Positions 18,989 through 41,877 of a stretch of DNA of 42,127 nt are shown here, piece by piece. Position 1 is the stretch's first letter. Each line of letters starts with the position of its first letter. Position numbers and translations under genes: made by a program. The notes below the pieces were generated by a model. It saw only the letters and a list, made by a program, of their open reading frames with translations. It had not been told where the DNA came from and did no database searches. The stretch lies in IMG/VR virus record IMGVR_UViG_3300025892_003881, positions 1 through 42,127 of that record, one strand, 5' to 3'. Origin of the DNA: a virus.

Positions 18989-20034
18989 TATAATACATCC
19001 TCCCTTCTTAAACCTAAAACTCTAGCTTTCCATGAATCCATATCTTCTAATCTATCAATTTCTTCATCTACTAATTGCTTTTGTTTTTCTGCTATCTCAA
19101 TCATCCTAGTTCTTTCCTCTTCTTCTTGAAATGATTGAACTAAATTCAAAATAGAAGCAAACCTATCTTGCTTATTTTTCATTCTTACAGAACGATCTCC
19201 ATTTAATTTTTTGATCAAAGATTCTTGTCTTTGCTCGCATTGATGGTATTCAGCACTTTTAGCTTTTAATATCTCTGCAAGTTTTACAGACATTTCTGTC
19301 TGATCTTCAACTTCGTCAAACATTTGATTTAACTTCTCCATGTTTCTTTGTATTGTTTTTAAATTTATATAGTCCACACAAACATTAATATATAAATTAA
19401 TTTCATCAATAGTTAAATCTGGCTTATCCCATGTAGCCCTTACAAATTCAGCCTCAAATAAATTTCTATCCTGACAATTATATGTATTCATAAGTTGAAC
19501 AAATCGAGGGGATGACATGTATTTTTTTGTCATCGAAATGCATTCGTTTTCAAATCTTTTCATTTTTTCTGGATTTAATTCTACATGAGCATATTGATTT
19601 ATCTTTTTTATAATCTTCAAATCTGTTTTGGGAGATTCATATATTTCGCTATCTTCAGTTTGTTTTGGCTTTATAAAATCTGGACTGTTTGTTTTTAAAA
19701 AATCAGCTACAATTCTTTGCTCCATACTTAAATTTTTAACTTCTTTATCTTGAAAAACTAACTGAGCTATTTGCAGGCTGCTAAGTTTGTCTTTTGCATA
19801 TTCTTTTATTAAACTTTCTTGCTCTTGATTTAATCTTATTTTTTTTGCTTTTTTATGAACCCTAGTCTTGTATCCATAACCTTTTTCAATCATGTACTCA
19901 GCTACAGCTTTACCTTCTTTATTACGCCCATCTAATGATTCGTCTTCAAATAAAGCTCTAGTTAACTGATCTATATCTGGGATTTGTAAATAATTTTTAT
20001 CTATAAATTCTTTTTGTTTTTTTGATAGTTTCAT
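18988..20034 (-). CDS. Possible terminase small subunit / DNA-binding protein
   Basis: 348 residues, very charged, mostly helical. Two N-terminal segments look like duplicated helix-turn-helix units: LSKKQKEFIDKNYLQIPDID (3-22) and LNQEQESLIKEYAKDKLSSL (68-87), each followed by a second conserved block (AVAEYMIEKGY and IVADFLKTNSP). The C-terminal 150 residues are coiled coil. A DNA-recognition module plus oligomerising helices, upstream of the large terminase in the same operon, suggests the small terminase, but the length is unusual. It is coupled by one-base overlaps at both ends. Moderate to low certainty for function. Confidence 0.4.
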   Translation of the reverse strand: MKLSKKQKEFIDKNYLQIPDIDQLTRALFEDESLDGRNKEGKAVAEYMIEKGYGYKTRVHKKAKKIRLNQEQESLIKEYAKDKLSSLQIAQLVFQDKEVKNLSMEQRIVADFLKTNSPDFIKPKQTEDSEIYESPKTDLKIIKKINQYAHVELNPEKMKRFENECISMTKKYMSSPRFVQLMNTYNCQDRNLFEAEFVRATWDKPDLTIDEINLYINVCVDYINLKTIQRNMEKLNQMFDEVEDQTEMSVKLAEILKAKSAEYHQCEQRQESLIKKLNGDRSVRMKNKQDRFASILNLVQSFQEEEERTRMIEIAEKQKQLVDEEIDRLEDMDSWKARVLGLRREDVL

Positions 20035-20780
20035 TACAAAAATATGTCTCTTTTTTTAATTAATCTTTCTCCAATTTCTTTAAATTTTATTTTTAAATTT
20101 TTTATTTGTTTATATCCAGCTTTTCTTCCTTTTTCTGAAGTTTTATATCCAAGTTTTAGAGCGACTTCTTCTTCTGGTATTTCCTCTATAAATAACATGC
20201 TATAAATCCAGAATTGTCTTTCGTTTAATTCCTCTTTCATTTGTTTGTGAAATATAGATATGTTAGTATCTAGTTCTCTGTCAAACTGAAAAGTGCTTGA
20301 AACTTCTCCTGTGACTTCTTCCATTGATATGGGAATTTTTATGTTACAAGCATGTTTTTTTGATTTAGACCATTTTTTATATAAAGGGCAGGTTTCGTCT
20401 TGAATTCCGCTTTTTGTAAAAGAACAAGAATTATCTGCACCCTCTCCAGTCATTGAATTATTCAACGGACAGCCTTCACAGGGTTTGACAAAACTATGAT
20501 AATAATTTCGTAATATATTTTTGAATTGATTTGTTATTATCTTATTAATCCACGGGAGCAATGGTCTAGACTGATCCCATTGGTCCCATTTTTTAGCTAA
20601 ATGAGCGCGCATAATTTGAGATACATCATCAAAATCCATCCAATTAAGAGCAGTCAGGCGCCATTTAGGTCGCCTTTTCCTTATCTCATTATCAATTTCT
20701 TTTGACTTGTCTTCGTACCTTACTTTTTGTTTTTTTCTTGACACTCTTAGGTTTTTGTTTATTGACCTCAGGCTCTTCAA
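20034..20780 (-). CDS. Phage RNA polymerase sigma factor
   Basis: 248 residues. Region 2-like helix block: MDFDDVSQIMRAHLAKKWDQW and SRPLLPWINKIITNQFKNIL (48-90). A Cys-bearing insert (C101, C104, C119, C131) may bind zinc. Region 4-like block LNERQFWIYSMLFIEEIPEE (185-204) with LGYKTSEKGRKAGYKQIKNL (210-229) forms a helix-turn-helix. Such proteins direct host RNA polymerase to phage promoters; sigma factors of this design are known in marine phages as late sigma factors. It is the natural candidate reader of the GTGTANNAT motifs in this window. It overlaps the zinc-ribbon gene by 89 bases, so either this start or that gene's end is unusual. Start taken at ATG 20780. Confidence 0.7.
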   Translation of the reverse strand: MKSLRSINKNLRVSRKKQKVRYEDKSKEIDNEIRKRRPKWRLTALNWMDFDDVSQIMRAHLAKKWDQWDQSRPLLPWINKIITNQFKNILRNYYHSFVKPCEGCPLNNSMTGEGADNSCSFTKSGIQDETCPLYKKWSKSKKHACNIKIPISMEEVTGEVSSTFQFDRELDTNISIFHKQMKEELNERQFWIYSMLFIEEIPEEEVALKLGYKTSEKGRKAGYKQIKNLKIKFKEIGERLIKKRDIFL

Positions 20781-27662: not shown

Positions 27663-27716
27663 AATAGCCATTTAGTCAATTACCTAAAAAACAAAAATAA
27701 ACCATAAGTTATTTAA

Positions 27717-30336: not shown

Positions 30337-30346
30337 AATAACCAAT

Positions 30347-31033: not shown

Positions 31034-31035
31034 AA

Positions 31036-31258
31036 ATGATTAATCATAAACATAAATGTATATTTATACATATACCTGGGACTGGCGGGACATCAATAGA
31101 ATCAGCTTTTGGTGAAAATATTAAATCAGGTTTCGTTAAGCATCAAACTTTATCTGATGTAATTAAAAAAAATCCATCAGAATATTAAAGAAGCTAAAGA
31201 AATCGTTGCGGAAAAATACGCAAAAGACATCGAGTCTTTCGTGTATGAATTTAAATAG
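31036..31258 (+). pseudogene. Broken sulfotransferase with internal deletion
   Basis: The first 50 codons (31036-31185) read MINHKHKCIFIHIPGTGGTS and match the phosphosulfate-loop end of the sulfotransferases here, then meet a TAA at 31186. Immediately afterwards, in the +1 frame, KEIVAEKYAKDIESFVYEFK and a stop (31187-31258) match the C-terminal end of the same family. The middle part with RNPWDR, roughly 120 residues, is missing. The simplest explanation is an internal deletion that also shifted frame. Starts two bases after the preceding stop, as an intact cassette gene would. Confidence 0.8.
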
Positions 31259-31272
31259 AACGAAAATTCACT

Positions 31273-31884
31273 TCAATAGTTATAGTTAAACATTTCTATA
31301 TCTTTCTTATATATTTCCGCTACTCTGTCTATAGTTTCTTGATCGTAGTATTCTTGATAAGGCTTTCTTTCTGTTGCATTGTGTCTACCTAGCTCTTCAT
31401 AATTAATATCTAATACCCTGCAAACCTCATAAAGGTCACTCTCGATGTTTTCAAACCTTCCAATGAAGTCTACTATTAAATCTCCATTCTCATCGCATAA
31501 ATGTACATATTGTGGTAATGCATGCCATATGATATTTTGAGTGCTTCTTTTCGCATCTCCATTTTTTTCATAAGGATATGCTTTTATAAAATCTTTAAAC
31601 TCTTTATATGGGCCTCCTCTGTTCTTCCAACATGATACAGATCTATCCCATGGGTTTCTTACAAAACCGAACTTAAAGTAGTCTTGCCATATATCTTCAA
31701 GACCTCTCTTTAGCCTTCTTGATGTTCCAATTTTGTAGGCTCCAGTTTCATTATCATGAGATCCATCTTTTGCTTGATGGTAACTTATATTAGAGAAGTT
31801 CTTAGTTCTTAAAAATTTTCCCATTGATGTACCAGCACATTTTGGCACATGTATAAATATTGATTCATGTAAATGACTTATCAC
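31273..31884 (-). CDS. Sulfotransferase
   Basis: 203 residues from GTG at 31884. Phosphosulfate loop FIHVPKCAGTS (10-20), 3'-phosphate motif FGFVRNPWDRSVSCW (72-86), C-terminus KKDIEMFNYNY. A TACTAT box lies six bases before the GTG, again suggesting a leaderless message. It is convergent with the broken copy. Soluble, so it acts in the cytoplasm on a glycan or lipid-linked precursor. Confidence 0.75.
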   Translation of the reverse strand: MISHLHESIFIHVPKCAGTSMGKFLRTKNFSNISYHQAKDGSHDNETGAYKIGTSRRLKRGLEDIWQDYFKFGFVRNPWDRSVSCWKNRGGPYKEFKDFIKAYPYEKNGDAKRSTQNIIWHALPQYVHLCDENGDLIVDFIGRFENIESDLYEVCRVLDINYEELGRHNATERKPYQEYYDQETIDRVAEIYKKDIEMFNYNY

Positions 31885-31979
31885 TAATAAATAGTAAAAC
31901 TATAATTGTGATTTTCAATATTTAAATTATCTCTGCAAACTGCTGATTATGAACGGCTTAGGCCGGTCGTATAACCTCT

Positions 31980-32570
31980 TTAGAATATTAAATATTTTAA
32001 ATATTCCTGATTAGGGTATTCTTCAATTAATTTTTTAGCTCCAGTCTGAGCCTCAAAAATAAACCAACCATTATTGGTTATTATTAAGTTAATCATATGT
32101 AGTGAGCCAGGGGAGGCAGGAATGCCGCCAAAAGCATGTCTTTGTTCCACTACTAATACTGCGACAGCAGGTTCGTTCTTATTGCCGTTCTTATAGGCTC
32201 CTATACCCATTAATGACTTATATAAAAGAGCGAAGTTATCACAATCAAGGTTTTCTTCTTGATCGATTGGCATAATGCCGTTTTCAAACTTTAATTTTTC
32301 GAACCAATTATTAAATTTTAAAAAATAAAAATAATCAACTTGATCGAACTTAGAATCAAACAATAAAACTCCTATATCTCTAGGAGTTCTTAACTTCTTA
32401 TAGTTAAACTCTCTTTGATGATTAAAGTGATAACCAATGTCTTGTCTTTTTAAGACGGATGTTTCGTCATCTCTTTCAAAATTAGGAATCTCTGATAGTT
32501 CTTCTAAATTCTGTTTATTGCAAGAACAGAATAAAAAAACTATAAAGAATATTTTTAGCAATTTTTTCAT
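31980..32570 (-). CDS. Lipoprotein with cysteine-peptidase/transglutaminase-like domain
   Basis: 196 residues. Signal MKKLLKIFFIVFLFCSC has Cys at 15 and 17 as lipobox candidates, so the protein is probably a membrane-anchored lipoprotein. The C-terminal part shows NLDCDNFALLYKSLMG (about 107-122, Cys nucleophile candidate), GSLHMINLIITNNGWF (His candidate, about 157-172) and IFEAQTGAKKL, a Cys-His-Glu layout like bacterial transglutaminase-like cysteine peptidases. It could trim cell wall peptides or process an envelope protein during lysis or exclusion. Its start lies after two tandem hairpins that may mask the ribosome site. Confidence 0.5.
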   Translation of the reverse strand: MKKLLKIFFIVFLFCSCNKQNLEELSEIPNFERDDETSVLKRQDIGYHFNHQREFNYKKLRTPRDIGVLLFDSKFDQVDYFYFLKFNNWFEKLKFENGIMPIDQEENLDCDNFALLYKSLMGIGAYKNGNKNEPAVAVLVVEQRHAFGGIPASPGSLHMINLIITNNGWFIFEAQTGAKKLIEEYPNQEYLKYLIF

Positions 32571-32572
32571 GG

Positions 32573-32606
32573 CAATTCCCCTCCTTTTGGGAGCCGCTTT
32601 TGCGGC
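32573..32606 (-). promoter_or_regulatory. Tandem hairpins over the lipoprotein ribosome site
   Basis: The minus strand reads GCCGC-AAAA-GCGGC and then CTCC-CAAAA-GGAG, with the second arm being the GGAGGGG ribosome site ten bases before the ATG. No T run follows, so it is not a standard terminator. It may tune translation of the lipoprotein relative to the upstream membrane protein. Confidence 0.45.
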
Positions 32607-32843
32607 TTATCTTTTTTGAATGGTATCGTATATTTTTATAATGTCAGCTCTTCGATCTTCTAAAAGCTTATTTACTTGAATCCATCTTTCTGCATCAAGA
32701 GCGCCGTTTTTCTCTGCTCTGATTTCTAGACTTTTTACTCTTTGGTCTAATTCTGATTGTTTTTGAGCTTCTTTCTTTAGAAAGAAACCTAAGATACTTA
32801 GGGCCACTCCTACCCCAAGAAATATGTAGTTACTGTAATCCAT
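32607..32843 (-). CDS. Small membrane protein, holin-like layout
   Basis: 78 residues. One membrane segment near the N-terminus (YIFLGVGVALSILGFFL, residues 6-22) with a charged coiled-coil tail (KQSELDQRVKSLEIRAEKNG). A strong ribosome site AGGAGG precedes the start. Single-span proteins with this layout include phage holins and spanin-like proteins. Next to a peptidase-like lipoprotein it may belong to lysis, which is inference. Confidence 0.5.
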   Translation of the reverse strand: MDYSNYIFLGVGVALSILGFFLKKEAQKQSELDQRVKSLEIRAEKNGALDAERWIQVNKLLEDRRADIIKIYDTIQKR

Positions 32844-32863
32844 TTTTTGCCTCCTTTTCGCTT

Positions 32864-32887
32864 TATGTTTATATAATATATATACAC
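32864..32887 (-). promoter_or_regulatory. Late-type promoter with normal leader
   Basis: The minus strand reads GTGTATATATATTATAT, then a 27-base leader with AGGAGG before the ATG at 32843. Another copy of the recurrent motif, here at promoter distance from a good ribosome site. Confidence 0.5.
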
Positions 32888-32932
32888 CTCAAGCCAGAGG
32901 TTGGATCTATTTATTTTGATTTCCTGTAAGAA

Positions 32933-33163
32933 TTAATCAGGCTGCCGCCTATTATTAATCGGGGAATTATTCACTTGACTCCATATGCTGTTATATAGCT
33001 GCTGTGCATATATTGCCCTGTTTTGCTCTTCAATTGTATCAAGAGCTAAATCTAGATCTTTTTCTAGTTTTTTATTAGATCCCCATAGGTTATATAATGC
33101 AACTATTAACATAAAACATGCGAAATAAGTGATATTAAGCTTTACTTCATGTTTTTTCTTCAT
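32933..33163 (-). CDS. Small membrane protein with periplasmic or cytoplasmic coiled coil
   Basis: 76 residues: basic start MKKKHEVKLN, one membrane segment (ITYFACFMLIVALYNLW), a coiled coil and a Pro/Asn-rich tail. The layout fits an inner-membrane spanin or other lysis accessory, but no motif proves it. The ATG follows GTGTAATTTATATTAA, with no ribosome site. Confidence 0.45.
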   Translation of the reverse strand: MKKKHEVKLNITYFACFMLIVALYNLWGSNKKLEKDLDLALDTIEEQNRAIYAQQLYNSIWSQVNNSPINNRRQPD

Positions 33164-33179
33164 TTAATATAAATTACAC
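33164..33179 (-). promoter_or_regulatory. Late-type motif adjoining a start codon
   Basis: The minus strand reads GTGTAATTTATATTAA then ATG at 33163; the TAATTT box ends seven bases before the ATG. Confidence 0.5.
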
Positions 33180-33224
33180 ACAATCTTGTTGACTTATATT
33201 TTATTTAGTATTAATATAGTATAA

Positions 33225-33461
33225 ATGCCACAAGACATAGGAAAAGAAAGTGTTAAGCATGTTGAGAACTGTATGGATGAATATTTCGAAGGAATATTAT
33301 CAGGTGAAGAAGTGACACATATATTAAATGATGTTGAATGGTATGAATCTATAGATCCTAACTATGTTTATCCAGTTTTAATTGTTGAGCCAATTTTAGA
33401 GGAAACTCCAAATAATCTTGTATGTATATGTAACCCCTTTGATAAAACAAAATTTTTATAA
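33225..33461 (+). CDS. Hypothetical acidic protein
   Basis: 78 residues, acidic (MPQDIGKESVKHVENCMDEY), containing EGILSGEEVTHILNDVEWYE, and ending CICNPFDKTKFL. No family recognised. A TAATAT box ends seven bases before the ATG. The stop codon lies two bases before the tRNA gene, so the two are probably co-transcribed. Confidence 0.45.
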   Translation: MPQDIGKESVKHVENCMDEYFEGILSGEEVTHILNDVEWYESIDPNYVYPVLIVEPILEETPNNLVCICNPFDKTKFL

Positions 33462-33463
33462 AA

Positions 33464-33540
33464 GCGAGAGTAGCTCAGTTGGATAGAGCATCTGCCTTCT
33501 AAGCAGAATGTCGTGAGTTCAAGTCTCACCTCTCGTGCCA
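33464..33540 (+). tRNA. tRNA-Arg (anticodon UCU)
   Basis: Full cloverleaf: acceptor GCGAGAG pairing with CTCTCGT (a G-U at the first pair), D arm GCTC/GAGC, anticodon stem TCTGC/GCAGA with loop CTTCTAA, T arm GTGAG/CTCAC with TTCAAGT, discriminator G and encoded CCA. The anticodon UCU reads AGA and AGG. AGA is the dominant Arg codon in this genome, so the tRNA probably supplements the host pool. Confidence 0.95.
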
Positions 33541-33581
33541 TTTTTAATTGAATATATTTTTTTTAAAACTATTATAATAGT

Positions 33582-33713
33582 ATGAAATATTTATTAATAC
33601 TAATTCTTCTTTCAGGATGCACATTTAAGCCCTGTATTAAAAAAACATCTCATAGTTGTCCTAAGCCAGGTCATGGACCTTGCTATTTATGCGAAGACCC
33701 TAAAAAATCGTGA
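33582..33713 (+). CDS. Very small lipoprotein
   Basis: 43 residues: MKYLLILILLSGC is a clear lipoprotein signal with lipobox LSGC, followed by a Cys/Pro/Lys-rich mature peptide (FKPCIKKTSHSCPKPGHGPC) with four further Cys. A TATTAT box ends six bases before the ATG, with no ribosome site. It may be an outer-membrane spanin-like or exclusion lipoprotein; unproven. Confidence 0.6.
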   Translation: MKYLLILILLSGCTFKPCIKKTSHSCPKPGHGPCYLCEDPKKS

Positions 33714-33716
33714 AAG

Positions 33717-33797
33717 ATGTTGCTTGAGTACTTTTCTATAGGATTTTGTATATTTTTAGCTTTAGTATTTATTCTCGACATGTTAATTAAAAAATAA
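33717..33797 (+). CDS. 26-residue single-span membrane peptide
   Basis: MLLEYFSIGFCIFLALVFIL followed by DMLIKK: one membrane helix with a positive C-terminal end. It starts three bases after the lipoprotein stop and overlaps the next ATG by one base (TAATG). Coupling at both ends supports a real gene. Confidence 0.45.
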   Translation: MLLEYFSIGFCIFLALVFILDMLIKK

Positions 33798-34201
33798 TGA
33801 AACTTTTTAAAGACATAGAATTTAAAGATCACCCGTCAATAGAAAATGCCACTATTGGAACAATAACACTAACAAATGGATTTGATGCTGTTTTAATTGC
33901 TCATGTTAAAAATGAAAAAACTGGCAAAATTGATAAAAAATTAAATGGAGAAGTTGTTTTTAAAAAAAATAAGAAAATTTCTGAAAACTATCAATTCGAG
34001 ATATATCAAAATGATTTAAATGATGACGATTTATTTGAAATTGAAGATGGAATATATTCCTTAAGTAATTTAACCCCAGAAAAAATAAATGAGTATCTTG
34101 TTTCAATACAGGAACTTGGGCATGAAGAATATTCGCTCAGAATAAAACAAAGAAAAAGAGATAACTTTTTTAAAAAGTTTGAAAATTATATTGATAAATA
34201 A
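33797..34201 (+). CDS. Hypothetical protein
   Basis: 134 residues, soluble, Lys/Glu/Asp-rich. The N-terminal half is beta-like (NATIGTITLTNGFDAVLIAH) and the C-terminal half helical (EKINEYLVSIQELGHEEYSL). No recognised family. Translationally coupled to the preceding membrane peptide. Confidence 0.45.
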   Translation: MKLFKDIEFKDHPSIENATIGTITLTNGFDAVLIAHVKNEKTGKIDKKLNGEVVFKKNKKISENYQFEIYQNDLNDDDLFEIEDGIYSLSNLTPEKINEYLVSIQELGHEEYSLRIKQRKRDNFFKKFENYIDK

Positions 34202-34264
34202 CTTTTATACAGTATAATAAACTTTATTAACACTACAGTACAACAAATAGAAAAAAAATAATAT

Positions 34265-34435
34265 ATGAGTCTAGAACCTGATGATAGCACAAAATGGCTG
34301 GGATGGAGAATTGGAACAGAAATGTCAAAGCAACACGAGGAAATGCAAGAAATTAAAAACCAACTCGCAATTTTAAATAAAACTTTAATGGAAATATCTA
34401 TTCGACTCGCAGAAATTGCAGAGAGTGATGAATGA
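34265..34435 (+). CDS. Small coiled-coil protein
   Basis: 56 residues: MSLEPDDSTKWLGWRIGTEM followed by a heptad-like helix (KQHEEMQEIKNQLAILNKTL) and an acidic end. It overlaps the next gene by eight bases. No ribosome site seen. Confidence 0.45.
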   Translation: MSLEPDDSTKWLGWRIGTEMSKQHEEMQEIKNQLAILNKTLMEISIRLAEIAESDE

Positions 34436-34820
34436 TGAAGGTTTATACGATGTATCAATCTTCCTACAAGAAGTAGGAGTAGTAAAAGTAAAAGGGGCAT
34501 CACAAAGAGATGCCGAAGAAAAAATAAGAAGATTTTGTAAGGGTTACAATAATTGTGATACTCAAGATCAAATATATATGCCGACTCTTCCTTTTAAACT
34601 AAAGGAATTAGAATTTAGAGAAGTAGAGGTAATAGATAGCGAATCCATACCAAGCATTAGTAATAAAGAAAGTAATAACTCAATTTATAATAAAGTTATT
34701 AATTCTGATAGTTATGAATCATTAAATAATGTTTCTATATCAAAAGAAGAATACGAAGAAATAAAAAATCTTAAAAATAAAGATATATCTAGTATAAAAG
34801 ACTCGGTAGAATTAAAATAA
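34428..34820 (+). CDS. Hypothetical protein
   Basis: 130 residues from ATG 34428 (MNDEGLYDVSIFLQEVGVV); a TTG 12 bases earlier is possible. The first 60 residues have a beta-alpha pattern with GASQRDAEEKIRRFCKGYNN, the rest is Ser/Asn/Lys-rich and probably disordered. No family recognised. Coupled to the coiled-coil gene and followed 20 bases later by a sulfotransferase. Confidence 0.45.
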   Translation: MNDEGLYDVSIFLQEVGVVKVKGASQRDAEEKIRRFCKGYNNCDTQDQIYMPTLPFKLKELEFREVEVIDSESIPSISNKESNNSIYNKVINSDSYESLNNVSISKEEYEEIKNLKNKDISSIKDSVELK

Positions 34821-34840
34821 AAAGTTTTTTAAAATTTTGA

Positions 34841-35452
34841 ATGAGGATATCTCATAAATATAAGTTTATATTTATTGCAGTTCCAAAGACAGGTTCAAGC
34901 ACGATTAGAAAAACACTAAATCCTCTTTCGGATATTAAAAGTACGGGAGATAAAGATTCTCCTTATTATTGGCATGCATCAGCAGCTTCTTTAAGAAAAC
35001 ACTTTATCGAGCAAGGATGGGACTGGGATAAATATTATAAATTTTCATTTATCCGCAATCCGTGGGATATGGTAGTTTCTTCATATTTTTATTTAAAACA
35101 CGAACACGAATCAAGATTTTACTATAAAGACTTTAGTTTTGAGGATTTTGTATTTAGAGGACAGCACATATTATCTCATCAACCTATACCCTTTGACACA
35201 AATCAAGTAGATTTTTTAATTGATTCTGATTATAATTCGGTAGAATATTTAATAAATCATATAGGCCGCTTTGAGTATATGCAAAAAGATTTTAATTCAA
35301 TATGCTCTGAAATAGGAATTACTTGCGAATCTCTACCTAAAATAAATAAAACAAAACATAAGCACTATAGTGAATATTATAATTCTGAAACAAGAGAGTT
35401 TATTAAAAATAAATATGCAAAAGATATATACGAATTTGGTTATGAATATTAA
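34841..35452 (+). CDS. Sulfotransferase
   Basis: 203 residues. Phosphosulfate loop FIAVPKTGSST (11-21), HWHAS-type segment YYWHASAASLRKHF (42-55) and FSFIRNPWDMVVSSYFY (68-84); the usual Arg after Asp in RNPWDR is Met. C-terminus YAKDIYEFGYEY. It is diverged from the other copies in the middle. Its stop overlaps the stop of the convergent sulfotransferase by two bases. Confidence 0.75.
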   Translation: MRISHKYKFIFIAVPKTGSSTIRKTLNPLSDIKSTGDKDSPYYWHASAASLRKHFIEQGWDWDKYYKFSFIRNPWDMVVSSYFYLKHEHESRFYYKDFSFEDFVFRGQHILSHQPIPFDTNQVDFLIDSDYNSVEYLINHIGRFEYMQKDFNSICSEIGITCESLPKINKTKHKHYSEYYNSETREFIKNKYAKDIYEFGYEY

Positions 35453-36021
35453 AATTTATAATCAAAGTTATATAAGTCCTCTGCAAATCGTTCCTTTACA
35501 ATATTCGCGCATTCATCATTGTAATAATATTTGTATTCTTCTCTCTTTGTCTTTCCTATATTCAGTATTTCGGCGCGTGATCTAATTCCTTTCATAGAAC
35601 ATATCTTTTTCAAATCTTCTTCTATGTTCTCTACTTTTCCTATGTAGTCAAATTCAACAGACTTGTCTGTTACTAAAAATTCAGTCATTGATAAAGGATC
35701 TTTGTTTTTCCAATTAACGCCATCTATTGTTTTATCTATCCAATGATTAATTAAGCCGCCTTTTATCCAATCTTGAAAACCTTCTCTTGTTTTAGGCTCA
35801 TATTCTTCGCCTTTATGCGCAAAATACCAACTTACCATACGATCCCATGGATTTCGCACAAAACTAAATTTAAAAAAAGATTCTATTCTTTCTCCTTCTT
35901 TCTTTATATATTCATCTAATGTTCTATGTCTTCTTCCTTTATATTCAAAATACCTTTCCACACTCCTGCCTGCACATTTTGGAATGTGAATGAATAAAAG
36001 TTCTTCTTTGTCTAATAACAT
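35449..36021 (-). CDS. Sulfotransferase
   Basis: 190 residues. LLFIHIPKCAGRSVERYF (8-25) and FSFVRNPWDRMVSWYF (52-67) are the two cofactor motifs; C-terminus FAEDLYNFDYKF. A TATAAT box ends five bases before the ATG at 36021. Last gene of the cargo region before composition and promoter type change to the right. Confidence 0.75.
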   Translation of the reverse strand: MLLDKEELLFIHIPKCAGRSVERYFEYKGRRHRTLDEYIKKEGERIESFFKFSFVRNPWDRMVSWYFAHKGEEYEPKTREGFQDWIKGGLINHWIDKTIDGVNWKNKDPLSMTEFLVTDKSVEFDYIGKVENIEEDLKKICSMKGIRSRAEILNIGKTKREEYKYYYNDECANIVKERFAEDLYNFDYKF

Positions 36022-36332: not shown

Positions 36333-36890
36333 TTAGCTAGAAAGCATTTCATCAACTGCCTTATGGCAAAGGTTGATTGCCATGTTGGAACAGGCGAGAG
36401 CCGCGCTTCTCTCGGATCCGTTGTGTCTTAGGCAGTACTCCTCAAGAGCTTGGAAACTCTCAGGAGTTGCGAACAGATTGTTTGGAAGCAAAGGGTTGGA
36501 GGGAACAGGTCTGCCTGTGAAGAAATCGAGCTCTGTGGCAGAAGGGTTGAGTTTACGAGCTTGGCGCTTTCCTCTCAGTATTGTGATCGCCTCCTGTAGG
36601 CTAAGAATAAGCTGTTCATTGTCTCGGATCTCTTGGGCTCTCTCTGTGGCTTTCTGAGCTTTCCTGTGCATCTCTAAGATAGATGTACCAAGTAGTGAAA
36701 GATCTGCATACTCCTCAGGATATCCTGTGTTGTCTGAGCTATCCGTGTAAGTTTCGATCAGTTTAGCATCTAAGCAGTACTGAAAGCATTTTCCATTCTG
36801 TGTATCCATGTTCTGAAAGTCATTTGTCCAAATGCCTCCATCCTGTTCGGATACCATGTTAAGAAAGATAACGAGTGTTTTTATGTTCAT
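36333..36890 (-). CDS. Hypothetical protein of the right region
   Basis: 185 residues. A hydrophobic start (MNIKTLVIFLNMVSE), central charged helix (LEMHRKAQKATERAQEIRDN), then a Pro/Asn-rich stretch GRPVPSNPLLPNNLF and a C-terminal helix. No family recognised. Codon use is GC-richer than in adjacent small genes and like that of the DUF932 gene. A (GTA)n run sits directly before the start, and a TTGACA promoter lies 36 bases upstream. Confidence 0.5.
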   Translation of the reverse strand: MNIKTLVIFLNMVSEQDGGIWTNDFQNMDTQNGKCFQYCLDAKLIETYTDSSDNTGYPEEYADLSLLGTSILEMHRKAQKATERAQEIRDNEQLILSLQEAITILRGKRQARKLNPSATELDFFTGRPVPSNPLLPNNLFATPESFQALEEYCLRHNGSERSAALACSNMAINLCHKAVDEMLSS

Positions 36891-36926: not shown

Positions 36927-36955
36927 AATCTCTCATAGATCTAGATCCGTGTCAA
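36927..36955 (-). promoter_or_regulatory. Early-type promoter (185-aa gene)
   Basis: The minus strand has TTGACA, 14 bases, TG, one base, GAGATT. Its first 22 bases are identical to the promoter of the neighbouring 48-aa gene. The -10 box ends 36 bases before the ATG. Confidence 0.65.
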
Positions 36956-37079
36956 ACTCTTTCTGCATTTTATAGATACAGAGAGCAGAAGCAATCCAAG
37001 GCAGTAGTAAACTGAGCCCATTAGTAAGACCTGCCAAGAGGAACGAGGCGGGAACGATAGATATGATAATAAGTTTCAT
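36933..37079 (-). CDS. Small membrane protein
   Basis: 48 residues: MKLIIISIVPASFLLAGLTN and LSLLLPWIASALCIYK form two hydrophobic segments, with a charged end KEFDTDLDL. The ATG lies seven bases after a -10 box, so no leader is expected. Its 3' end overlaps the promoter of the next gene. No family recognised. Confidence 0.5.
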   Translation of the reverse strand: MKLIIISIVPASFLLAGLTNGLSLLLPWIASALCIYKMQKEFDTDLDL

Positions 37080-37086
37080 GCTACTA

Positions 37087-37115
37087 CTATAGACATAGAT
37101 CTAGATCCGTGTCAA
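37087..37115 (-). promoter_or_regulatory. Early-type promoter abutting a start codon (48-aa gene)
   Basis: TTGACA, 14 bases, TG, one base, CTATAG; the box ends seven bases before the ATG at 37079. Same design as eight other sites in the right region. Confidence 0.7.
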
Positions 37116-37206
37116 CACTTCTTTCGTTTAGTTTGTTCTGTTCGGATCTGCACGGACAAATACACTTCCAACCCTCTTGGAAGTTTACTTTTTAACTTCC
37201 ATCCAT

Positions 37207-37283
37207 AGATCCGCCTCAGATCTGTAGATCCGTAGATCCGCCTCAGATCTGTAGATCCGTAGATCCGCCTCAGATCCGTAGAT
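37207..37283. repeat. 27-base tandem repeat, three copies, GATC-rich
   Basis: Two exact 27-base copies (37207-37233, 37234-37260) and a diverged third (37261-37283). Each exact unit has three GATC sites and an internal AGATCT. It lies in a 417-base gene-free stretch (37080-37496) with the pyrimidine tract. Iteron-like; could be an origin, a regulatory array or a protein-binding array. Confidence 0.85.
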
Positions 37284-37289
37284 GCTCAC

Positions 37290-37415
37290 GTAGATCTGTT
37301 TAGTTTGTTTACTCTCTCTTTCTTTCTCTCTTTCTCTCTTGTTATTTTGTTCTATTTTGTTTCTTTCCTATTTCTTTCTATTTAGGTTCTATTTCGTTTC
37401 TTTCTATTTAGCCCA
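37290..37415. repeat. Pyrimidine-rich tract with dispersed repeat
   Basis: Long T/C tract with TTTCTTTCTATTTA-type units. CTTGTTATTTTGTTCTATTT at 37338-37357 recurs exactly at 39641-39660 and in shorter form at 38758-38773 and near 42037. All lie between genes of the right region in the same orientation. On the transcribed strand these are A/G-rich leaders. Role unknown. Confidence 0.6.
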
Positions 37416-37442
37416 AAAAAAAGCCCTCCTTTCGGAGGGCTA
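37412..37442 (-). terminator. Terminator after the DUF932 gene
   Basis: Perfect stem AGCCCTCC / GGAGGGCT with loop TTTC; on the minus strand T8 follows. About 55 bases beyond the DUF932 stop. Confidence 0.9.
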
Positions 37443-37496
37443 AGGTTTAGGGTAAAAGGATTGTCAAAAGCAATCCTAAGCATAAGACAAGGGCAA

Positions 37497-38429
37497 TCAT
37501 ATCGCTAATACTTCAGTTATAGCATTGCGAACCTTAGTAGGAAAGGCGCTATCAGCTAATGAGCGAAAGCGATTTTCTTCTCTAGAGGTTTGCTTGGTTT
37601 CTCTAGTGATTCGATCATGAGTTTGATAGGCGGTGAAAGCATTGAAAGCATCCCATGCGGTTTCACCGAATGCACCAAGGCGCTCATTAGAGAATTGAGC
37701 CTTAGTCGCTTCTCTTGCGGTTTCAGCTTGCTTGCTTTCGCCCTTGAATACGATTTCATTGATTAGATCAAACTCGCTTGGGGTAACTTCCCTAAGTGAC
37801 AAGTCAGTAACGTCAGCGCTTAGATTGTGAATGATTTGCCTAACTCCCGTTGCTTGCTCAAGGGCGGTTGCCATGATCGCCCTTTGATTGCGAGTATGCT
37901 TTACCTTGGCAATGCGATTGCCCTTGTCCCATGATGCCATGCCATTGTCGCACCATACTCTAAGGATTTCGATTTGAATCACCGTTGCAAGCGAACCGTC
38001 AAAGCTAGTTCTTGCAGTGACTCTAATCTCTAGAATATCGCCCTTTTTCCTATCGCCCTTGCTAGGCACTTCGATAGTCATATCCATTTTACCGCTGATA
38101 TAAAGCTGACGCCCTTGGTGAGTAAAGCCTGCGGTATCATACTCAAAGCCTAGTTCTTCTTTAAGTGCATCTAAGAATGCGAATGCTTCAGTAGGTTGGA
38201 GCAAGTCATAAGTAGATGAAACGATAGTTAAAGGCTCGCCACGATCATCTTTGATTAGTTTAAAACCATTGCAAACGTGGTTAAGTGATTCAGTTGAATA
38301 ATCACCAACGTCTAACTTAGTTAATACGTCATTAACGTTCTCGCTATCGCTTACGTCTTCAATGTTGAAAGACCGTGCTTTGATTGCTGACTCTATGGTT
38401 GGCGGGGTTGAATTTAAGAAGTAACTCAT
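37497..38429 (-). CDS. DUF932-family (phage/plasmid-like) protein
   Basis: 310 residues. Recognisable DUF932 pattern: a Tyr/Leu-rich core VVSSTYDLLQPTEAFAFLDA-type segment (about 68-90), GRQLYISGKMD, VQIEILRVWCDNGM (about 151-164) and KVKHTRNQRAIM (173-184), then a helical C-terminal half. Family members are widespread on phages and plasmids, with unknown function, often close to replication or recombination genes. It has a real leader (44 bases) with AAGGATAT before the ATG, in contrast to its leaderless neighbours. GC-richer codons suggest strong expression or a different origin. Confidence 0.8.
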   Translation of the reverse strand: MSYFLNSTPPTIESAIKARSFNIEDVSDSENVNDVLTKLDVGDYSTESLNHVCNGFKLIKDDRGEPLTIVSSTYDLLQPTEAFAFLDALKEELGFEYDTAGFTHQGRQLYISGKMDMTIEVPSKGDRKKGDILEIRVTARTSFDGSLATVIQIEILRVWCDNGMASWDKGNRIAKVKHTRNQRAIMATALEQATGVRQIIHNLSADVTDLSLREVTPSEFDLINEIVFKGESKQAETAREATKAQFSNERLGAFGETAWDAFNAFTAYQTHDRITRETKQTSREENRFRSLADSAFPTKVRNAITEVLAI

Positions 38430-38473
38430 TTTTATATCCTTATGTTTAGATTAATAATTAACTGTGAAACCAT

Positions 38474-38502
38474 AGATTCGCATAAGTAGATAGTTATGTC
38501 AA
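38474..38502 (-). promoter_or_regulatory. Early-type promoter (DUF932 gene)
   Basis: TTGACA, 14 bases, TG, one base, GAATCT, preceded by an A-rich stretch. The box ends 44 bases before the ATG, one of two copies with a true leader. Confidence 0.7.
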
Positions 38503-38800
38503 ATCTTTTTTTAATTAGTTTAAAATTGTTTTAAATAGATAGTTTTACCTTTGTTCTAATTAGTTTGTTTTTACCTAGTGAAATGCTCTAATCAAATAAG
38601 GGCTTAGAAAGGGCTTGCTTAGTCGATACGATACAAGGCTCACGTCTTACCTTGAAAAGCAACCCTAATGTTCTAATCAATTCAATAATGTTCTAATTAG
38701 TTTGTTTATATATCTTTCTTTTGTTCTTTTGTTCTATCTATTTTATTTATTTCTTTCTTATTTTGTTCTATTTAGTTTATTATTGATTTCTATTTGAACA
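38503..38800. other. Gene-free stretch with repeated TGTTCTAATTA words
   Basis: No open frame is supported. TGTTCTAATTAGTTTGTTT occurs at 38552-38570 and again at 38689-38707, with partial copies at 38584-38594 and 38669-38679. A less AT-rich core (about 38590-38665) lies between them. It could be a long leader, a small RNA gene or a binding region; I see no decisive structure. Confidence 0.4.
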
Positions 38801-38828
38801 CAAAAAAACCCTCTATTTCTAGAGGGAA
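38798..38828 (-). terminator. Terminator after the 172-aa gene
   Basis: Stem CCCTCTA / TAGAGGG with loop TTTC; T7 follows on the minus strand. 28 bases beyond the stop. Confidence 0.85.
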
Positions 38829-38853
38829 AGAATGATTTCTTTTTTTGACTAGC

Positions 38854-39372
38854 TCAGTCTAGAATAATGTTTTCCCCTTGGAATCTCATTGAAAGAATAT
38901 TCTCTAACTTAATATCTCTTAGAATAATCTTTTTGTCTAATTGATCTTGAGTCGAACTTTCTCTCTTTTTTGGCAAGAATTCTTCGATTGCGCTTTTTTC
39001 GATTGGCGCGCCGTTTTCAAGAAAATAATTTACCTCGAAAGTTTTTTCAACTTTGCATTCAAGGTAATGATTCCCTTTGTGTTCGACAAGCGCGCAATTA
39101 GGCAAACGAATTCCCCAACGCCTTGGTTTAACGTCAAAGTCAATCTCTTTGCCTTCACGTTTCGCCTGTGAATTTAAAGAATTAGAATATTGGAATCCAA
39201 CATTTGCAAGCAAACGTGTTTTCTTTAATATAATCTCTTTGTCTTTGATATATGGGTTATTCGTTTTCTTGACTCGCGCATCTGTTAAGATAGTCAAGCC
39301 AATGAGAGAATGTCCAACGTAGTTCAAAAAGAACTGAAGGACTGAGCTAGTAGTATTCGTTTTTGTAATCAT
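38854..39372 (-). CDS. Hypothetical protein
   Basis: 172 residues, soluble, Lys/Glu/Asn-rich. It has a helical start (SSVLQFFLNYVGHSLIGLTI), a middle with VKPRRWGIRLPNCALVEHKG and a charged C-terminus ending RFQGENIILD. No family recognised. The ATG follows the -10 box by six bases, with no ribosome site. Confidence 0.55.
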   Translation of the reverse strand: MITKTNTTSSVLQFFLNYVGHSLIGLTILTDARVKKTNNPYIKDKEIILKKTRLLANVGFQYSNSLNSQAKREGKEIDFDVKPRRWGIRLPNCALVEHKGNHYLECKVEKTFEVNYFLENGAPIEKSAIEEFLPKKRESSTQDQLDKKIILRDIKLENILSMRFQGENIILD

Positions 39373-39378
39373 GCAATC

Positions 39379-39407
39379 AATATCTCATAGATAATTCGTT
39401 ACGTCAA
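39379..39407 (-). promoter_or_regulatory. Early-type promoter abutting a start codon (172-aa gene)
   Basis: TTGACG, 14 bases, TG, one base, GATATT; six bases to the ATG at 39372. A long A tract precedes the TTGACG. Confidence 0.7.
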
Positions 39408-39487
39408 CTTTTTTTTAATCTTTTTTAAAAATAATTTTTAAGGTAATAAAAGAGTTAGAATAATACCACAGATAAAAATTGAAATAA

Positions 39488-39604
39488 TCATTTGCTCTTT
39501 GGCTTTGGTATGGAATCAATAGCTTGTTTCCTTGTATAGTTAAAACGTTTCATGATATATAAAATCATTTCCTCTCCTTTTAATTGTTTTGTTTGTTCAC
39601 TCAT
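39488..39604 (-). CDS. 38-residue basic peptide
   Basis: MSEQTKQLKGEEMILYIMKR followed by FNYTRKQAIDSIPKPKSK. It could form a short helix-turn-helix-like unit. No promoter of the early type directly upstream and no clear ribosome site (ATGTAATG context). Coding status is plausible, not certain. Confidence 0.4.
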   Translation of the reverse strand: MSEQTKQLKGEEMILYIMKRFNYTRKQAIDSIPKPKSK

Positions 39605-39660
39605 TACATATATATTTCTATTTAATTAATTTATTTTTCGCTTGTTATTTTGTTCTATTT

Positions 39661-39698
39661 AAAAAATTTCCTGTTTGTATTTGACGGAAAACAGGGAA
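39661..39698 (-). terminator. Terminator-like hairpin with 12-base loop
   Basis: Ten-pair stem built on CCTGTTT / AAACAGG (39667-39676 with 39689-39698); on the minus strand T6 follows directly. It lies 17 bases after the stop of the 58-aa gene. Confidence 0.65.
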
Positions 39699-39714
39699 AA
39701 ACGTTTTGATTAAT

Positions 39715-39891
39715 TTAAACTATGCAATCTAATTGCCAATATGGCTTGTAATCTTTTTTCTTTTCGATTGCGTTTAATACTTCTTTTGTCAACCAAGCAA
39801 ATTTCCCATCATTCATACGGACAAGAAAATATCCGTTTTTAGATTTTGTTTTACTTAGTTTAATTGCTATTGATTTCTTTTTTATGTCCAT
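39715..39891 (-). CDS. Small basic protein
   Basis: 58 residues: MDIKKKSIAIKLSKTKSKNG, then YFLVRMNDGKFAWLTKEVLN and YWQLDCIV. A compact beta-alpha pattern, very basic N-terminus; a nucleic-acid-binding role is possible. The ATG is six bases after its -10 box. No family recognised. Confidence 0.55.
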   Translation of the reverse strand: MDIKKKSIAIKLSKTKSKNGYFLVRMNDGKFAWLTKEVLNAIEKKKDYKPYWQLDCIV

Positions 39892-39897
39892 GTTCTT

Positions 39898-39926
39898 ACA
39901 ATCTCACGTTTAAGTTATCTTGTCAA
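39898..39926 (-). promoter_or_regulatory. Early-type promoter abutting a start codon (58-aa gene)
   Basis: TTGACA, 14 bases, TG, one base, GATTGT; six bases to the ATG at 39891. The TTGACA box overlaps the last codons region of the upstream gene. Confidence 0.7.
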
Positions 39927-39927
39927 A

Positions 39928-40215
39928 TTAATTTTGTACGACGTGCCAATCTTTTAAATTAATTACTTTAGCGCCGTTATAATATTGTTCATGATCTTTT
40001 TGATAGACATCGACATTTAAGATTCCTTTTAATCTTTCTCTCGTTGTAGAAGATCCCCACCCTGCAAAGGTAAAAAGTATTACCCCACTTGGATCTCTTT
40101 TAATTATCTCGTTTCCATGTAAAAAAACCGAGTCCCCATCAGTAAACGTTGCATTTACTTTCTTTGTTTGACGTGCAAAGAATGCTTTTTTAATTTGTTC
40201 TGTTACTTTTCTCAT
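39928..40215 (-). CDS. Small phage protein
   Basis: 95 residues: basic helix at the start (RKVTEQIKKAFFARQTKKVN), then DSVFLHGNEIIKRDPSGVIL, FAGWGSSTTRERLKGIL and a C-terminal QYYNGAKVINL. The segment AGW followed by STTRERL resembles a small family I have seen in phage and plasmid early regions, whose function I cannot name. A ribosome site AAGGAG precedes the ATG, and the gene follows the 79-aa gene by 15 bases in one operon. Confidence 0.55.
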   Translation of the reverse strand: MRKVTEQIKKAFFARQTKKVNATFTDGDSVFLHGNEIIKRDPSGVILFTFAGWGSSTTRERLKGILNVDVYQKDHEQYYNGAKVINLKDWHVVQN

Positions 40216-40230
40216 ATTGTTTTTCTCCTT

Positions 40231-40470
40231 TTAGTTATTTGAATTTAATCTACTATTGCGCGCATTTAATCGATTGTCAAATTCTTTTTCTGTAATGAAA
40301 AGATCTTCATTAAAAGAATAATAACAATGGGATTGTTCTACTACGTTATAAACGTATATGTACCACCGCCCGCTAATTTCAGACGGGATCTCATCGCCAC
40401 CGCACGCTATTCTGTAAGGATGTAGCCACCCGCTTTTCCAATCGAAAGGACATTGTATTGTTTTAATCAT
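40231..40470 (-). CDS. Hypothetical protein
   Basis: 79 residues, aromatic and Cys-containing (MIKTIQCPFDWKSGWLHPYR), with ISGRWYIYVYNVVEQSHCYY in the middle and a charged end. No family recognised. First gene of a two-gene unit; ATG six bases after its -10 box. Confidence 0.5.
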   Translation of the reverse strand: MIKTIQCPFDWKSGWLHPYRIACGGDEIPSEISGRWYIYVYNVVEQSHCYYSFNEDLFITEKEFDNRLNARNSRLNSNN

Positions 40471-40476
40471 ATAAAC

Positions 40477-40505
40477 AAATTGCCACGTCTTTAATCTTAC
40501 GTCAA
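40477..40505 (-). promoter_or_regulatory. Early-type promoter abutting a start codon (79-aa gene)
   Basis: TTGACG, 14 bases, TG, one base, CAATTT; six bases to the ATG at 40470. Confidence 0.7.
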
Positions 40506-40512
40506 ATAAATT

Positions 40513-40743
40513 TTAATCTTTTTTAAAGTTTTTCTTTTCCTGGTAATTCCCAGGAAAAAGTTTAACGTGCAAACACATAAAACAAAATAAACTAATTAAA
40601 TAGAATATAATTGAAAAGAGAAAAAACCAATTAGAATGGTGCGAGGTAAAGGCAAAGTATATAATAAAAGATCCAATAAAAAATGATAAAGCTTGAACAA
40701 TACAAAGGAATGAATCTTGTAAACTAGAAATTAATATTTTCAT
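40513..40743 (-). CDS. Two-span membrane protein
   Basis: 76 residues with two membrane segments, LSFFIGSFIIYFAF (19-32) and WFFLFSIIFYLISLFCFMCL (39-58), and a basic tail. It is followed almost directly by the promoter of the 79-aa gene. No early-type promoter is visible in front of it. An envelope or exclusion role is possible. Confidence 0.5.
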   Translation of the reverse strand: MKILISSLQDSFLCIVQALSFFIGSFIIYFAFTSHHSNWFFLFSIIFYLISLFCFMCLHVKLFPGNYQEKKNFKKD

Positions 40744-40832
40744 TTATTTATTTTATTTAGATTATTTTTCTTTTTATTTATTTAGAATAAATTAGCTTTT
40801 ATTTAGGGAAAAGCTTAAAACCTTTTAATCAA

Positions 40833-41051
40833 TTAAATGATTTGCCCGCCATTCTTATAAAAGTTTAATTCGAATTGATCCAAAACCTTTTGTTTGTTTC
40901 CTTTGTATCCGAATAACTTTTTAACTTGCGAGTAACAAGTTGGCGCTTTTGCTGTCAATCTCATGCCTTTACCTTTTACTTCGGCACGTAAGCCAACTAA
41001 AAGCAATTTCATTTTATAGGCGTGAGGATCATATACTTTTGTTTCATTCAT
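40833..41051 (-). CDS. Hypothetical basic protein
   Basis: 72 residues: MNETKVYDPHAYKMKLLLVG, then LRAEVKGKGMRLTAKAPTCY and a C-terminal FELNFYKNGGQII. The basic helical pattern suggests nucleic-acid or protein binding; no family recognised. ATG six bases after its -10 box. Confidence 0.5.
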   Translation of the reverse strand: MNETKVYDPHAYKMKLLLVGLRAEVKGKGMRLTAKAPTCYSQVKKLFGYKGNKQKVLDQFELNFYKNGGQII

Positions 41052-41057
41052 AAGTAG

Positions 41058-41086
41058 AGAGTAATCTATATAATTTTAAATTGCAA
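41058..41086 (-). promoter_or_regulatory. Early-type promoter, TTGCAA variant (72-aa gene)
   Basis: TTGCAA, 14 bases, GA in place of TG, one base, TACTCT; six bases to the ATG at 41051. An A8 tract precedes it. Confidence 0.6.
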
Positions 41087-41105
41087 ACTTTTTTTTAATC
41101 TTTTT

Positions 41106-41288
41106 TTACAAATCCCATTCTCCTTCTTTTACATTATCAATGTCTTGCATTGCCTTGTCGTAAGCAGTCGATTCGCTTGTATCGATTATCTCGTCATCAT
41201 ACAATTCAAGTATATCATTTGCATACTGAGCATTGAATGATTCCTCTTTAACTAATCTATTTAATTCCTTTTCTAGTATTTCTCTCAT
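41106..41288 (-). CDS. Small acidic protein
   Basis: 60 residues, strongly acidic: MREILEKELNRLVKEESFNA, then ILELYDDEIIDTSESTAYDK and an acidic end EGEWDL. Third gene of a run with the basic 43-aa and 65-aa proteins, five bases downstream of the former. Acidic small proteins of early regions often mimic DNA or inhibit host enzymes; this is only a possibility. Confidence 0.5.
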   Translation of the reverse strand: MREILEKELNRLVKEESFNAQYANDILELYDDEIIDTSESTAYDKAMQDIDNVKEGEWDL

Positions 41289-41293
41289 GTTAT

Positions 41294-41425
41294 TTAATCA
41301 ATTAGAATTTCTTTCTTGTATTTCCTTCTATTGTATTTCTTTTTATCCTTATGCGGGCGTGACTTAGTAAATAAGACTTTCAATCTTATCTTAATTACTT
41401 TATTCTTCTTCTTTCTCTTTTTCAT
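41294..41425 (-). CDS. 43-residue Lys/Arg-rich protein
   Basis: MKKRKKKNKVIKIRLKVLFT followed by KSRPHKDKKKYNRRKYKKEI and LID; more than half the residues are basic. The ATG overlaps the stop of the HicA-like gene by four bases (ATGA), which supports translation. It probably binds nucleic acid or the acidic neighbour protein. Confidence 0.5.
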   Translation of the reverse strand: MKKRKKKNKVIKIRLKVLFTKSRPHKDKKKYNRRKYKKEILID

Positions 41426-41619
41426 TTGAGATCGATTCCTGTTTCCTTTCTTGCCCAAGAAATAATTGGCTTAATTGCCTTATCTCCAAAATGGCAATAA
41501 TAAGACTGCTCTGCTTTAGAGTGGGAAACAATATCTTTCCCATTTCGTTTATTAATAATAAAACCTAGCTTGCGCATCCGTTTCATTAACTTTTTTAATC
41601 CGCTACTTGTGTGACTCAT
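41422..41619 (-). CDS. HicA-like small protein without the usual catalytic His
   Basis: 65 residues. GLKKLMKRMRKLGFIINKRN (7-26), SYYCHFGDKAIKPIISWARK (39-58) and ETGIDLK follow the HicA pattern (helix, GF turn, strand, late helix). In HicA mRNA interferases a GSHH-type His follows the first strand; here it is GKD. So it may be an RNA-binding fold without cleavage, or a chance resemblance. No HicB-like antitoxin follows. ATG six bases after its -10 box. Confidence 0.35.
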   Translation of the reverse strand: MSHTSSGLKKLMKRMRKLGFIINKRNGKDIVSHSKAEQSYYCHFGDKAIKPIISWARKETGIDLK

Positions 41620-41625
41620 AATAAT

Positions 41626-41654
41626 ACTTTCGCATACTTGTTTGCCTATTGCAA
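41626..41654 (-). promoter_or_regulatory. Early-type promoter, TTGCAA variant (65-aa gene)
   Basis: TTGCAA, 14 bases, TG, one base, GAAAGT; six bases to the ATG at 41619. Confidence 0.65.
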
Positions 41655-41662
41655 ACTTTTTT

Positions 41663-41842
41663 TTAATAAATCGTTACTTCTAATTTATCTAATTCTTTTT
41701 CGCTTAATTGATTGAATCGTTTTTCAATTTGTTTTAATCCGATTATCTTTCCGCGCCAATCTTCATAAAAAGATTCATTTTGGAATCTCCATAAAAAGTT
41801 TAATTGTAACGAGTCGATGTATTGTTTTAATAAGTAATTCAT
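41663..41842 (-). CDS. Small hypothetical protein
   Basis: 59 residues: MNYLLKQYIDSLQLNFLWRF, then QNESFYEDWRGKIIGLKQIE and a charged helical end. No family recognised. The ATG is six bases after a -10 box and there is no ribosome site. The next promoter starts within a few bases of its stop. Confidence 0.5.
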   Translation of the reverse strand: MNYLLKQYIDSLQLNFLWRFQNESFYEDWRGKIIGLKQIEKRFNQLSEKELDKLEVTIY

Positions 41843-41848
41843 ACAAAC

Positions 41849-41877
41849 ACTAAACGATACAATTCAAACGATTGCAA
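41849..41877 (-). promoter_or_regulatory. Early-type promoter, TTGCAA variant (59-aa gene)
   Basis: TTGCAA, 14 bases, TC in place of TG, one base, TTTAGT; six bases to the ATG at 41842. The TTGCAA lies inside the end of the possible 25-residue membrane peptide. Confidence 0.55.

Follow-up and report, generated by a model that had tools for sequence, protein, structure and literature searches.

Among the genes of Actinobacteria about 20% are leaderless, their messenger RNAs (mRNAs) beginning at the start codon itself; in Deinococcus-Thermus the share is 40%, and in both groups a TANNNT element is found some 12 bp ahead of this codon (PMC3160421). A review indicates that the 70S ribosome binds a 5'-terminal AUG, with other codons being poorly used in Escherichia coli and GUG well used by some actinobacteria (PMC9031893). 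Among phages, leaderless initiation in a Gram-negative host has been attributed to lambda, as cited in PMC3160421. In the Thermus phage phiYS40, most middle and late transcripts are leaderless, and an infection-linked change in initiation factors has been proposed, IF2 going up and IF3 down (summarised in PMC3594737). Cluster O mycobacteriophages (Corndog and others) carry predicted SigA promoters whose +1 falls on the start codon's first base (PMC4351075). Here, we analyse a set of promoters placed immediately before the ATG of small genes in the virus record IMGVR_UViG_3300025892_003881 (42 kb, 32% G+C; the whole of it is referred to as the window) and in related uncultured phages.

Promoters and start codons in the window

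The original prediction was that nine near-identical promoters occupy the minus strand of the window, seven of them ending 6-7 bases before an ATG and two serving genes with leaders. Every one of the nine is present at its position and strand: TTGACR or TTGCAA is followed by 14 bases, then by a dinucleotide (TG at seven sites), one further base and the hexamer. One further promoter, missed in that prediction, is found on the plus strand. Minus-strand sites are named below by their higher coordinate; distances are in nucleotides (nt), and SD stands for a Shine-Dalgarno site.

41849..41877, minus: promoter TTGCAA-N14-TCG-TTTAGT, ATG after 6 nt
41626..41654, minus: promoter TTGCAA-N14-TGC-GAAAGT, ATG after 6 nt
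41058..41086, minus: promoter TTGCAA-N14-GAT-TACTCT, ATG after 6 nt
40477..40505, minus: promoter TTGACG-N14-TGG-CAATTT, ATG after 6 nt
39898..39926, minus: promoter TTGACA-N14-TGA-GATTGT, ATG after 6 nt
39379..39407, minus: promoter TTGACG-N14-TGA-GATATT, ATG after 6 nt
38474..38502, minus: promoter TTGACA-N14-TGC-GAATCT, leadered, upstream of the DUF932 gene
37086..37115, minus: promoter TTGACA-18-TATAGT, 6 nt to ATG (7 nt when read as CTATAG after 17 bp)
36927..36955, minus: promoter TTGACA-N14-TGA-GAGATT, leader of about 30 nt without SD
33189..33217, plus: additional promoter TTGACT-17-TAATAT, 7 nt to the ATG at 33225

The gap between hexamer and ATG is exactly 6 bases at six of the seven sites (41877, 41654, 41086, 40505, 39926 and 39407). 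At the seventh, 37115, it is 7 bases as originally read and 6 if the site is taken as TTGACA-18-TATAGT, which matches the consensus at 11 of 12 positions and is better than the 17-bp reading. The two leadered sites are also as predicted, 38502 standing before the DUF932 gene and 36955 before the 185-aa gene. The description as near-identical holds for the constant -35 and spacing, but not for the hexamers, which are weak, or for the spacers, which differ except in the pair 37115/36955, where both contain CGGATCTAGATCTATG.

The genes concerned, most of which are of unknown function in the promoter region, are the following:

41663..41842, minus: 59-aa gene, predicted leaderless
41422..41619, minus: 65-aa gene, predicted leaderless
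40833..41051, minus: 72-aa gene, predicted leaderless
40231..40470, minus: 79-aa gene, predicted leaderless
39928..40215, minus: 95-aa gene downstream of the 79-aa gene in one unit, with SD AAAGGAG (Kyano_Gp96 / phrog_554)
39715..39891, minus: 58-aa gene, predicted leaderless
38854..39372, minus: 172-aa gene, predicted leaderless
37497..38429, minus: DUF932 protein gene (E 1.8e-32), leadered
36933..37079, minus: 48-aa gene, predicted leaderless
36333..36890, minus: 185-aa gene, leadered
33225..33461, plus: 78-aa open reading frame (ORF), predicted leaderless, directly 5' of tRNA-Arg(TCT)

When the whole window was scanned, the leaderless pattern followed by an ORF of at least 40 aa occurred six times, always on the minus strand and always within the promoter region. 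Taking 1000 dinucleotide shuffles as reference, the mean expected by chance is 0.009 for this 5.8-kb region and 0.057 for the whole window, so that the arrangement with an ATG 6 bases on lies far above chance.

Two sequence features accompany some of these promoters. A tandem 27-bp repeat of GGATCT/AGATCT units (37201-37283) is located upstream of the 37115 and 36955 promoters, whose spacers contain GGATCTAGATCT; the array resembles a series of repressor-binding operators. Moreover, an A-rich, UP-element-like stretch, AAAAAAAAGTT, lies just upstream of, or overlaps, the -35 boxes at 41654, 41086 and 39407 on the minus strand.

The layout in related phages

The comparison was extended to a clade set of 30 IMG/VR records, comprising the window and 29 relatives with a related terminase (1.8 Mb); it omits five of the 34 records searched, four of these five being short and without a match. 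In its statistics, related records are counted as separate and identical sites have been removed, and some of the records are fragments. The pattern TTGAC-17 bp-TANNNT is found at 360 sites, with an ATG at 6 bases in 111, at 7 in 28 and at 8 in 21, while an average distance has about 6. Twenty-four of the 30 records contribute to the ATGs at 6 nt, and the peak is seen with the 17-bp spacer only. Counted from the genes, a promoter stands at 6 bases in 143 and at 7 in 31, against 3.9 per distance, and the layout thus recurs across the clade. The distance from the end of the -10 element (TANNNT-like) to the start codon is about 6 nt, as in known leaderless genes, and the codon found at 6 nt is ATG in 111 cases, GTG in 6 and TTG in 1, which is the AUG preference of such genes; the rarity of GTG agrees with the poor use of non-AUG codons in E. 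coli (PMC9031893).

Leaderless-type genes appear across many clade records, with up to about 25 per record. Their density, 7.7 per 100 genes, is around four-fold that of 78 other IMG/VR loci (1.8), a background sample chosen through a control pattern of different distance. In these loci the promoter stands at 6 bases in 17 genes and at 7 in 3, the mean per distance being 2.7; this smaller excess indicates that the layout occurs elsewhere at lower strength. T4 and pelagiphage HTVC008M, each taken over its first 50 kb, contain zero such sites. As a positive control, Thermus phage P23-45 was tried and discarded as unsuitable for this promoter type, given that only one gene in 50 kb carries the TTGAC pattern. 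A 146-kb phage contig, L257 (IMGVR_UViG_3300023174_000064), presents about 24 TTGAC-17-TANNNT sites on one strand within 14.8 kb, the majority exactly 6 nt before an ATG, and is probably an independent and locally denser case.

The usual sigma70 initiator is a pyrimidine followed by AT. Among the clade promoters without an ATG 3-11 bases past the hexamer (n=98), pyrimidine-A-T begins at position 5 in 23, compared with about 5 at other positions. This places an A at position 6, where the A of the ATG would be, and, taking into account that the initiator is kept in promoters devoid of ATG, +1 seems to be marked independently of the start codon.

Comparison of orthologues points in the same direction. 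The near relative G004 has the layout before seven genes, several of them absent from the window, with diverged spacers; its versions of the 65-aa and 79-aa genes are 94% and 89% identical, respectively, and retain the same ATG at +1. In G007, the 59-aa gene is 90% identical with the same ATG start, and its promoter (TTGACT..TGGTTTATT) retains the -35, the TG, the -10 and the 6-base gap, the spacer having diverged. Relatives of the 72-aa gene in G004 and G007 match from residue 10, and their ATG is equally distant from the promoter. Where the layout is lost an SD is found: the G007 orthologue of the 58-aa gene has AAAGGAGAG upstream in place of the promoter, and that of the 172-aa gene has a promoter, ATA at +1 and then a leader with the SD AAAGGAAAAC. 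With respect to the leadered DUF932 gene, the start of its leader (GGTTTCACA..., 38429-38473, minus strand) is conserved in the window, G001, G004, L010 and G007, most of which have an SD (AAGGA in the window), and is possibly a control site or an mRNA element.

Mechanism, rival explanations and timing

That the normal output of these promoters would be leaderless mRNAs, as originally predicted, is well supported by the 6-base peak in the clade, the initiator in ATG-less promoters, the nearly strict use of ATG and the orthologue comparisons. The best explanation, and a highly probable one, is that host-type sigma70 promoters start transcription at the A of the ATG and that the host ribosome takes the resulting 5'-AUG messages. 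Thus, a promoter with TTGAC, a 17-bp spacer and often an extended TG -10 would start at an A six bases past the -10; when this A is that of the ATG, RNA polymerase would produce messages lacking a leader, and the ribosome, most likely as 70S, would take up the terminal AUG without Shine-Dalgarno pairing. Later genes in a unit, and leadered genes, would use SDs, when any are used. A simple evolutionary route is also suggested, in which the pyrimidine-A-T initiator would turn into a start codon given a following G. We infer the start at the A of the ATG, the translation of these messages, their earliness and a host tolerating or favouring leaderless messages.

Several points weigh against this explanation. 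Although the sigma70-type features (TTGACA-like -35, 17-bp spacer, A2 and T6 in the -10, optional TG) are present clade-wide, they are weaker in the window, whose hexamers are weak and whose TTGCAA, used at three of the six sites, matches the consensus at four positions of six. Six of the 30 records, several of them fragments, lack any ATG at 6 nt, the ORF calls are mechanical, and transcripts from promoters farther upstream could also cover the same genes. In the clade, an SD stands before 33 of the 147 genes whose promoter lies at a greater distance, but before just 1 of the 175 leaderless ones. This contrast is partly circular because the -10 hexamer fills the place that an SD would take in leaderless genes; the orthologue comparisons are unaffected by this overlap.

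A different view is that the ATG is coincidental, or a part of the promoter or operator, and that translation proceeds from other starts on longer transcripts. The GGATCT motifs overlapping two of the promoters would fit it, but in all seven leaderless ORFs of the window the ATG is the earliest ATG, GTG or TTG past the upstream stop, and no later start preceded by an SD exists in their first 40 codons. Orthologous proteins in relatives start alike with the ATG equally distant, and GTG, TTG and CTG are not similarly used, all of which makes this view very improbable. It could also be proposed that the promoters belong to a middle or late class read by a phage protein encoded elsewhere in the window:

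20034..20780, minus: sigma-like protein with a region 2-like segment and a C-terminal region 4-like segment

This protein, with conserved cysteines between the two segments, is conserved in 68 related loci and is a better candidate for the transcription of late genes. The width of its distribution would favour its reading these promoters, but its gene lies within the structural cluster, its Pfam match is weak (E 1.6e-4, under the gathering score) and the promoters have a sigma70-type -35/-10 with a 17-bp spacer, so that its recognition of these sites appears unlikely.

Returning to sigma70-dependent leaderless messages, their use may reflect either a habit of the host or a factor made by the phage. 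According to the first possibility, the phage would match a host lineage rich in leaderless and poor in Shine-Dalgarno initiation. The promoters resemble canonical host sigma70 sites, SD use over all genes is low in the clade (11%, whereas T4 reaches 47% and the 78 other IMG/VR loci 41%), and some bacterial phyla make wide use of leaderless genes (PMC3160421). In addition, some genomes in a phylum tied to one terminase-bearing metagenome-assembled genome (MAG) have the layout. Among them, G143 shows 12 promoters exactly 6 nt before an ATG (control 0); its exact-pattern distances bunch at 5-7 nt, although a repeated element with TTGACCTTCGAACGATACC inflates the counts. However, the MAG links point to unrelated groups, and the sampled cellular chromosomes have 0.4 to 1.5 leaderless-type genes per 100 and 30-34% SD use. 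This higher density in the phages would instead favour the second possibility, that the phage alters the host ribosome or initiation factors so as to favour leaderless messages, as proposed for phiYS40 (PMC3594737), and the many genes of unknown function in the region could accommodate it. Nevertheless, an IF3 homologue was not found in 15 records, the analysis turned up no other candidate factor, and early genes, if they are early, would have to function before any phage factor is made. Since the promoters are sigma70-like, SD use is low in the clade and no IF3 homologue was found in those records, a host habit is preferred and is rather probable, a phage factor being improbable.

As regards timing, leaderless genes are shorter than the others (median 82.5 versus 133.5 aa) and, in nine records, mostly well away from the terminase. 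Taking into account their length, their location mostly outside the structural cluster and their sigma70-type promoters, it is plausible that they form an early class. More tentatively, and with the odds against it, the early programme of the clade might open many units with a leaderless gene and have largely abandoned Shine-Dalgarno sites, either because the host is an uncultured lineage whose initiation is mainly leaderless or SD-independent, or because the messages serve to evade the control of SD-led initiation during takeover.

Host, neighbouring genes and known systems

The window terminase is only about 24-28% identical to its best cultured-phage matches; its relatives in IMG/VR number at least 598, of which the top 80 show about 69-86% identity. 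Relatives lie on contigs of up to 194 kb. A 163-kb relative contig encodes a ribonucleotide reductase, a DNA polymerase III alpha-like protein and a DnaB-like helicase. To judge by the organism names on weak matches and MAGs, these uncultured phages are probably aquatic. Alignment of the terminase to genome contigs retrieved four MAG contigs (Halobacteriovorax, a Flavobacteriaceae bin, a Verrucomicrobiales bin and one further bin), which were judged unreliable as a host clue since the groups are unrelated and may reflect binning noise. The match of the tRNA-Arg to a Synechococcus phage was likewise set aside, this tRNA being too conserved for host assignment. A WhiB homologue (PF02467), common in actinophages, was not found in 24 records, an absence that constitutes weak evidence on actinophage membership. 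In the groups around the terminase-bearing MAGs leaderless density is sparse, with one richer genome, G143, from the phylum of the Verrucomicrobiales MAG G038, which has many TTGACTTTT...TGCTATACT promoters. It was rejected as host, given the repeat inflating its counts and a single leaderless-type gene in the sampled stretches. In the Halobacteriovorax MAG, a 32.6-kb contig (G035:C12), separate from the 71.7-kb terminase-bearing one, has 9 leaderless-type genes out of 80 and is probably a further fragment of a phage of this kind, assigned to the MAG by binning.

Beside the promoter region, the cargo stretch 23415-36021 is rich in sugar modification functions (nucleotide-sugar transferases, NodZ- and O-FucT-like proteins) and contains four Sulfotransfer_2 matches, at 29746, 31273, 34841 and 35449.

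If the proposed mechanism is true, a common group of uncultured phages, as gauged by those terminase relatives, would start many small genes from leaderless messages, which is relevant to the competition of phages for ribosomes. The layout would also improve the calling of start codons in genomes of this type, and would be a signature that may aid host finding. In the open-licence literature, no description of it was found for this clade.

The arrangement had been regarded as unusual in a phage of a presumed Gram-negative-type host, which is only partly right: other phages have known or predicted leaderless transcripts, and a smaller 6-base excess is seen in generic IMG/VR contigs, the clade being several times richer. 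As in the leaderless genes of Actinobacteria and Deinococcus-Thermus, the -10 ends about 6 nt before the start codon, the predicted transcription start coincides with this codon and an SD is lacking; unlike them, these genes belong to low-GC phages, have TTGAC and extended TG elements, and seldom start with GTG. With phiYS40 the clade would share a class of messages that is mostly leaderless, but that class is middle and late, in a thermophilic host rich in leaderless genes, whereas the one predicted here looks early. The cluster O mycobacteriophages resemble it in that leaderless mRNAs are predicted from promoter sequence, and differ in having few promoters per phage and an actinobacterial host, against the much larger number of genes per record in the clade. 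Lambda, as cited in PMC3160421, also has an mRNA starting at AUG, although as a single case and not as a promoter set. With leaderless genes already described from both bacteria and phages, this clade would be a further, well-sampled case.

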